Shown here in pieces: positions 15,972 to 35,803 of a DNA stretch of 51,442 nucleotides (the stretch's first letter is position 1; each line of letters opens with the position of its first letter). Origin of the DNA: an uncultured Bacteroidota bacterium. GTDB taxonomy: Bacteria > Bacteroidota > Bacteroidia > Flavobacteriales > Flavobacteriaceae. The stretch spans positions 1-51,442 of the forward strand of contig CABYMF010000008.1 in the NCBI GenBank assembly GCA_902519955.1. Direction: 5' to 3'. A program made the position numbers and the translations under genes. The notes below the pieces were generated by a model, which was not told the origin of the DNA, searched no databases, and saw only the letters and a program-made list of their open reading frames with translations.

Positions 15972-16313
15972 TTATTCAGATTTTTCCTCTGCAGCTGGCT
16001 CCTCAGCTTTTGCTTCCTCTGCAGCTGGCTCCTCAGCTTTTGCTTCCTCTGCAGCTGGCTCCTCAGCTTTTGCTTCCTCTGCAGCTGGCTCCTCAGCCTT
16101 TGCTTCCTCTGCAGCTGGCTCCTCAGCCTTTGGCTTAGGTGGTTCTTCTTTCTTTACAATTGGCTTACCAGCTAACCAGTCATTGACAAGATCTTGTGGA
16201 AGAATTCTTTCCTCAAATGAATAGCTATCAGAACCATTTTTTTTGATCATTCTAATTGCTTTTGCAAGTTTTTTTGAGCCAGTTTGTAAACTAGCAACAG
16301 CTTTTTTTGCCAT
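15972..16313 (-). CDS. DUF4295 ribosome-associated protein with repeat acidic tail
   Basis: The first 50 residues (MAKKAVASLQTGSKKLAKAI, then RMIKKNGSDSYSFEERILP) match DUF4295, a short basic family found after rpmB-rpmG in Bacteroidota. The location, 1 bp after rpmG, supports a ribosomal role. I recall extra large-subunit proteins being described in a Flavobacterium ribosome structure, but cannot confirm this is one. Unlike ordinary ~50-residue members, this protein is 113 residues. After the KPIVKKEEPPKPK linker come five copies of a ten-residue unit AEEPAAEEAK, the last ending in KSE. The tail is very acidic on an otherwise basic protein. It is encoded by a near-perfect 30-bp tandem repeat. 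Confidence 0.88.
   Translation of the reverse strand: MAKKAVASLQTGSKKLAKAIRMIKKNGSDSYSFEERILPQDLVNDWLAGKPIVKKEEPPKPKAEEPAAEEAKAEEPAAEEAKAEEPAAEEAKAEEPAAEEAKAEEPAAEEKSE
15991..16132. repeat. 30-bp tandem repeat, four full copies plus a partial fifth
   Basis: The unit gcagctggctcctcagcttt followed by tgcttcctct starts at 15991, 16021, 16051 and 16081. A fifth copy from 16111 diverges after about 22 bases. The first three copies are identical; the fourth differs by one T to C change. The unit is clearly richer in G+C than the surrounding DNA. It is in frame with the DUF4295 gene and gains or losses of a unit would add or remove ten residues without a frameshift. Confidence 0.95.
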
Positions 16314-16314
16314 C

Positions 16315-16497
16315 TTATTTTATTTCTTTGTGAACAGTCATTTTCTTCAGAATAGGATTGAATTTCTTAATTTCTAATCTATCTGGAGAATTTTTTTTAT
16401 TCTTAGTTGTTATATATCTAGAAGTACCTGGCTTTCCTGAGTCTTTATGCTCAGTACACTCCAAAATTACTTGAACTCTATTACCTTTTTTTGCCAT
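16315..16497 (-). CDS. rpmG: 50S ribosomal protein L33
   Basis: L33 is a small protein of the large subunit near the exit site. The 60-residue product ([20 protein letters not shown]) shows the family core with [12 protein letters not shown] and the ending [10 protein letters not shown]. Only one cysteine is present where zinc-binding L33 forms have four, so this is the zinc-free (C-) type. It lies 1 bp after rpmB and 1 bp before the DUF4295 gene. Confidence 0.95.
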
Positions 16498-16498
16498 T

Positions 16499-16735
16499 TT
16501 ACTTAATTAAACCTTGTTTTCTAGCTTCTTTTAAAACTTCCGAAATACCTTTTTTATTAATAGTTTTCAAAGCAGATGCTGAAACCTTAAGAGTAACCCA
16601 TTTATTCTCTTCAGGAATGAAGAAACGCTTCTTAATGAGATTTACATCAAATCTTCTTTTTGTCCTATTCAATGACTTAGAAACATTGTTTCCAAACATG
16701 ACTTTTTTTCCAGTAATTTCACAAGTCTTAGACAT
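16499..16735 (-). CDS. rpmB: 50S ribosomal protein L28
   Basis: The 78-residue product begins [20 protein letters not shown] and contains [19 protein letters not shown], the normal L28 pattern. It is the first gene of rpmB-rpmG-DUF4295. A TAGTTTTG element 25 bp upstream is the probable promoter. Confidence 0.95.
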
Positions 16736-35188: not shown

Positions 35189-35803
35189 TTATTCAGATTC
35201 ATCTTTTGATTCATCCTCAGAGGTTTGTTCCTCTGCGTTATTTTTTTCATCTTCAGCTTCTGCCTCCTCTGCTTTTGCCTCCTCTGAAGGTTTATCACTT
35301 AGTGTCTTGACAAGCCCAGCAATTTTTCCGCTACTAGATTTTAATGCAGAAATAATATTCTTGGCTGGGGATTGAAGAATTGATATAATCTCTCCTATAA
35401 CTTCTTCTTTTGATTTTAATTTAAATAATGCTTCTATATGTTCATCTCCGATATAAATCGCCTCATCAACAAATGCTCCTTTTAATATAGGTTTGTCACC
35501 ATCCTTTCTAAATTTCTTGATAACTTTTGCAGGACTATTGCCTACATCAGAAAGCATTATTGTTGTATTACCTTTTAATAAATCTTTAAGTTCTCCAAAA
35601 TCACTTTCAGAATCACTCATAGCTCTTTCAAGGAAAGTATTCTTAACAACTGAAAGTTTTACATTAGAATTAAAACACTCTTTCCTAAGCTTACTTGTTT
35701 GAACAGAATCAAGACCTGCAATGTCTGTCAAATAGATTGACTTGTAATCAGCAAGTTGATATTTTAAATCCTTTACAAGTTTAACTTTTTCTTCTTTGTT
35801 CAT
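35189..35803 (-). CDS. rplJ: 50S ribosomal protein L10 with long acidic tail
   Basis: L10 anchors L7/L12 dimers to the 50S base. The first 170 residues follow the family: EEKVKLVKDLKYQL, KLRKECFNSNVKLSVVKNTF and the helix that binds L7/L12. After SDKPS there is an extra acidic tail of about 30 residues (EEAKAEEAEAEDEKNNAEEQ, then TSEDESKDESE), taking the length to 204. Repeated E/A/K codons resemble those in the DUF4295 tail. It is 6 bp after rplA, too close to hold a separate L10 leader. Confidence 0.96.
   Translation of the reverse strand: MNKEEKVKLVKDLKYQLADYKSIYLTDIAGLDSVQTSKLRKECFNSNVKLSVVKNTFLERAMSDSESDFGELKDLLKGNTTIMLSDVGNSPAKVIKKFRKDGDKPILKGAFVDEAIYIGDEHIEALFKLKSKEEVIGEIISILQSPAKNIISALKSSSGKIAGLVKTLSDKPSEEAKAEEAEAEDEKNNAEEQTSEDESKDESE

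Follow-up and report, generated by a model that had tools for sequence, protein, structure and literature searches.

Repeat-built acidic tails on the ribosomal proteins bL38 and uL10 in the flavobacterial genus MED-G11

The window analysed here comprises positions 1 to 51,442 of contig CABYMF010000008.1 of an uncultured Flavobacteriaceae bacterium, whose genome assembly amounts to 1.04 Mb in 39 contigs and is 79% complete. Its minus strand carries rpmB (bL28; 16499..16735) and rpmG (bL33; 16315..16497), both identified as open reading frames with Pfam matches, and, one base downstream of rpmG on the same strand, an ATG-initiated open reading frame of 113 amino acids (15972..16313). The product of this frame matches PF14128 (DUF4295) over residues 2-47, with 51.6 bits against a cut-off of 27 and an E-value of 8e-14, and its best sequence matches among proteins of ribosome structures include F. 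johnsoniae L38 (PDB 7jil chain 4, E 5.1e-9) and a P. gingivalis chain of 9i5t. The AlphaFold model of the core contains two strands and a helix at a pLDDT of about 90. With this model Foldseek placed 7jil chain 4 at rank 1 (probability 1.00, TM by target 0.80, E 0.041) and found P. gingivalis 9i5t chain 15 with a TM by target of 0.74 and an E-value of 0.34; such weak E-values are expected at 36 residues, the part of the 50 bL38 residues that is modelled in 7jil. The comparison with the F. johnsoniae ribosome rests on PDB titles and on PMC10618245. By sequence and modelled fold the product is bL38, a protein of the large subunit already described in ribosomes of Bacteroidota, which gives a precise identity to what the initial annotation had called a ribosome-linked DUF4295 protein. 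The core resembles in sequence and fold the bL38 proteins of the F. johnsoniae 70S ribosome (7jil chain 4) and of P. gingivalis (9i5t chain 15), whereas these known proteins, of 49-50 amino acids, end where the tail described below begins.

Residues 1-51 form the basic core (16161..16313, minus strand; pI 9.9), delimited by means of Pfam, AlphaFold and pI calculation. After the KP motif comes a linker, IVKKEEPPKPK (16128..16160, minus strand), a KPI-type extension common to genus g53 (L064, L068), and then five 30-bp units (15978..16127, minus strand), defined by Tandem Repeats Finder and unit alignment. The initial annotation had read all five as AEEPAAEEAK; the number of units stands, with four of them encoding that peptide and the fifth, AEEPAAEEKS, ending in KS in place of AK. 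Tandem Repeats Finder delimited the array at 15984-16132, with a period of 30, 5.0 copies, 99% matches and a score of 284, far above chance. The 30-mers of units 2 to 4 are identical, in agreement with the three identical units reported earlier, and unit 1 is one base off. The G+C content of the array likewise exceeds that of its surroundings as first described (0.58, compared with 0.31 in the window), an excess owed mostly to the high G+C of Ala, Pro and Glu codons, GC3 being only 0.31 in the tail and 0.20 in the core. The mRNA of the array folded no better than its shuffled versions (z = 1.13), and a role of the repeat at the RNA or DNA level was rejected on account of this unremarkable fold. 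The whole tail, 62 residues C-terminal to the core, is strongly acidic, as had been noted, and lowers the pI of the complete protein to 4.8. It is predicted to be disordered, since AlphaFold assigns it a pLDDT of 42-69 without secondary structure.

The close named relatives of the window genome belong to MED-G11 (L081, L082), which an excerpt of PMC10734526 describes as an uncultivated genus of Flavobacteriaceae. Matches to bL38 were obtained in 21 of the 25 genomes of the genus, the four genomes without one, as well as the six without a uL10 match, all being incomplete (57-81%). At each of the 21 loci bL38 is preceded by rpmB and rpmG. The tail is present in all 16 uncut proteins and extends 38-88 residues after the KP motif, so that copy number changes in frame among relatives, as the initial annotation had anticipated, instead of being fixed; in the five cut proteins, tail units have begun in two and the contig ends before the tail in three. 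In other genera, 257 of the 259 bL38 frames are of 66 amino acids or fewer among the matches listed (259 of 289 matched genomes), which together with the solved structures bears out the norm of about 50 residues that had been given for DUF4295. Two proteins of genus g53 (L064, L068), of 81-89 amino acids, have a non-repeat extension with the same KPI start, which suggests that the extension may be older than the repeat. On the genomes compared, the repeat tail of bL38 is specific to MED-G11; the earlier description was therefore incomplete, in that the tail marks a whole genus and not one strain, and in that the same repeat is also found on uL10. The order-level search, for which a tailed relative served as query, gave matches in 298 of 395 genomes. 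Thermoguttaceae and Acetatifactor MAG loci (L122, L145) matched only an AEEAKAEE-like tail, an indication that such peptides arise elsewhere too.

The second protein bearing the repeat is encoded in the window by rplJ (uL10, 204 amino acids; 35189..35803, minus strand), assigned from its open reading frame and match. Its acidic tail of 34 amino acids and net charge -12 (35192..35293, minus strand) holds a degenerate repeat at the place where most relatives in the genus carry the KAEEPAAEE repeat of bL38. Sites matching the AEEPAAEE[AV] codon pattern number 44, in 13 of the 25 genus genomes, and every one of them is in bL38 or uL10; those matching the looser KAEEP pattern number 86 in the 25 genomes, 85 of them in these two genes. 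A genome-wide spread of the peptide was rejected, the sole KAEEP site elsewhere lying in a 617-amino acid frame (G304:C45, L245). All 17 genus uL10 proteins that are not cut before the tail possess one, of 27-75 residues; G187, G310 and G313 were left out as cut, and the partial protein of G302, found by pattern search (L163), was included. These tails are acidic to the end in 16 of 17 cases. In G299 (L201) the frame shifts after the repeat and the protein ends in a basic peptide, which reflects a sequencing indel or else a genuine frameshift close to the array. Among the open reading frames of the window that were screened, only bL38 and uL10 reach a net charge of -7 or below in their last 40 residues. 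Of the ribosomal proteins in two S10-spc-alpha stretches, only bL17 (L300, L301) has a clearly acidic end, which is short, with net charges of -7 and -5 over the last 40 residues. Among other genera, 138 of 139 genomes lack a uL10 frame longer than 197 amino acids, a second, sub-cut-off match in G097 being left uncounted. The exception is G136 of genus g137 (L289), whose uL10 has an acidic, proline-containing repeat tail after the same core. This tail differs from that of MED-G11 in its 27-bp unit, repeated 5.4 times (array 2033-2179 of L289) and encoding a TEDVSVEAP-type peptide, and bL38 of the same genome (L013) has no tail; the g137 tail looks like one of independent origin. The repeat tail of bL38 and its uL10 twin appear to be new, bL38 itself being known; no description of a repeat tail on either protein was found in literature searches with incomplete journal coverage.

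Comparison of close genomes indicates how the arrays change. bL38 tail length differs in steps of 10 residues between very close genomes, as in G312 (48 residues) and G306 (58 residues), and between G000 (62 residues) and G320 (52 residues), the core genes of which differ by 1.8% at the DNA level. In the latter pair, the complete bL38 units of each genome all carry the base differences that set it apart from the other, and at such low core divergence this points to turnover of units through slippage or unequal recombination. Units resemble each other more within a genome than between genomes, both in bL38 (mean identity 0.864 versus 0.779) and in uL10 (0.905 versus 0.749). These alignments show in-frame gain and loss of units and their homogenisation within genomes. 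Most units of the G299 bL38 have 9 residues. The net charge of the bL38 tail is always negative and is not tightly kept, ranging from -3 in G304 to -21 in G305. No DNA-level exchange between the two genes was detected, the identity of bL38 units to uL10 units being 0.759 in the same genome and 0.743 in different genomes, a difference reached by 382 of 5000 permutations; at the amino-acid level there was a weak same-genome excess (0.75 versus 0.722, 46 of 5000 permutations). Gene conversion between the arrays was rejected on the lack of a DNA-level excess within genomes, and the peptide is hence common to both genes although their DNA evolves apart.

Divergence at four-fold sites of core genes (K4) had a median of 0.45 over 210 genus pairs, with about 60 sites per pair. 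When the window tail was evolved under neutral substitution, it was still open in 0.36, 0.15 and 0.08 of the runs at branch lengths of 0.1, 0.2 and 0.3, respectively. The finding that 16 of 16 tails are long and open, against the frequent stops of the simulation, argues for selection, an argument to be read with the provisos that related genomes are not independent and that turnover of units could by itself clear away stops, with no selection on function. What selection would retain at the protein level is an acidic, flexible and unstructured chain and not an exact sequence.

The position of the two proteins suggests where such a chain might act. According to passages of PMC10618245, bL38 lies against uL6, uL14 and helix 95, which bears the sarcin-ricin loop, and the authors of that paper consider that the protein may influence GTPases; the contact detail in those passages refers to the Borrelia protein, which is displaced by 14 A from that of Flavobacterium. 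The GTPase-associated centre, according to passages of PMC5514047, includes the sarcin-ricin loop, the stalk and uL10. With bL38 at the helix of the sarcin-ricin loop and uL10 carrying the stalk, both proteins border the factor-binding centre, and the presence of the same acidic repeat on two proteins of this region suggests an acidic brush. We tentatively propose, at somewhat below even confidence, that the genus-specific, repeat-built tails of bL38 and uL10 are selected and form a disordered acidic brush beside the factor-binding centre. Such a brush would concentrate translation GTPases locally or shield the site from RNA and other ligands not wanted there, and repeat slippage or unequal recombination would permit a rapid change of its length. 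It would act in a manner loosely comparable to the P-stalk tails of eukaryotes, though lacking the hydrophobic end that those tails use. This lack, the degenerate state of the window's own uL10 tail and the loosely kept charge of the bL38 tails speak against this proposal.

Acidic tails at the GTPase-associated centre have a precedent in the eukaryotic P-stalk, whose proteins uL10, P1 and P2 bear, according to the same passages of PMC5514047, acidic tails that serve GTPases and terminate in a hydrophobic segment. The MED-G11 tails are alike in being acidic, C-terminal and, as predicted, flexible, and in being attached to proteins at this centre, uL10 being among the carriers in both systems. 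They differ in that the tail is also on bL38, in that it is a tandem 10-mer repeat and in that it lacks a hydrophobic end of the GFGLFD type: LF or FG occurs in 0 of 33 bL38 and uL10 tails, counted without the frame-shifted uL10 of G299 and the N-containing bL38 of G301, and consequently the tails are not classed as P-stalk type and homology is not claimed. bL12 of the window is an ordinary protein of 126 amino acids. That the tails constitute a length-evolvable acidic brush, tuned by slippage and convergent with the P-stalk tails as their bacterial counterpart, is an analogy that we regard as doubtful.

The same arrays could also be the outcome of tolerated growth, in which GC-rich units coding for Ala, Glu and Pro lengthen an exposed C-terminus through slippage and serve no function. 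The fast turnover of copy number and unit sequence, exemplified by G000 and G320, and the variable net charge are what such growth would give, but no tail has been lost from the uncut proteins of these genomes of about 1 Mb, the neutral simulation predicts frequent stops, and the peptide recurs on one other ribosomal protein but hardly anywhere else. Growth without function is in this light somewhat unlikely, yet a serious alternative. A tail acting as self-chaperone would neutralise the basic core before assembly and limit aggregation and stray RNA binding, its ribosomal position being incidental. The idea of acidic segments that act like chaperones is familiar, and the shift from a core pI of 9.9 to a whole-protein pI of 4.8 in the window, and of 4.5-5.1 in 12 of the 14 other uncut proteins free of N, fits it. 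However, ribosomal proteins of the S10-spc-alpha cluster that are more basic have no such tail, the core of uL10, with a pI of 8.8, is less basic, and whole bL38 stays basic in G304 (pI 8.8) and reaches 6.35 in G313, which leaves this explanation somewhat unlikely, though likewise a serious alternative.

Repeated peptides without fixed structure often serve as multivalent docking sites, and the tails might recruit a genus-specific partner, such as a hibernation factor, a chaperone, a protease or a membrane tether, in place of translation GTPases. Sharing of the motif by two adjacent proteins would give avidity, but the units differ in sequence from one species to the next, leaving no precise motif conserved, and recruitment of this kind seems very improbable. 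An assembly artefact or chimera, a danger named in the initial annotation and one that contig ends in or just before the tail at 5 of 21 bL38 loci (L033, L037, L041, L045, L049) and 3 of 20 uL10 loci (L196, L206, L208) might evoke, is scarcely credible and in practice refuted, because independent genomes, including the 1.1-Mb contig of MED-G11 FRAM18_bin151 (L082), carry similar arrays with the frame kept and the same two genes precede bL38 at all 21 genus loci. Assemblies broken by repeats or by strain variation would be expected to show contig ends at array edges.

Ribosomal proteins are usually regarded as slow-changing, and the tails of bL38 and uL10 contrast with this notion: in these marine bacteria with very small genomes, two proteins bordering the factor-binding site differ by the gain and loss of 10-residue blocks even among species that are nearly identical, yet stay acidic. 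Under the proposed reading of an acidic brush at the factor-binding centre, the tails may affect the access of translation factors to the ribosome. If they prove functional, the genus would offer a natural length series relating charge around the stalk and the sarcin-ricin loop to translation factors, and it would indicate that P-stalk-like tails can arise in bacteria.
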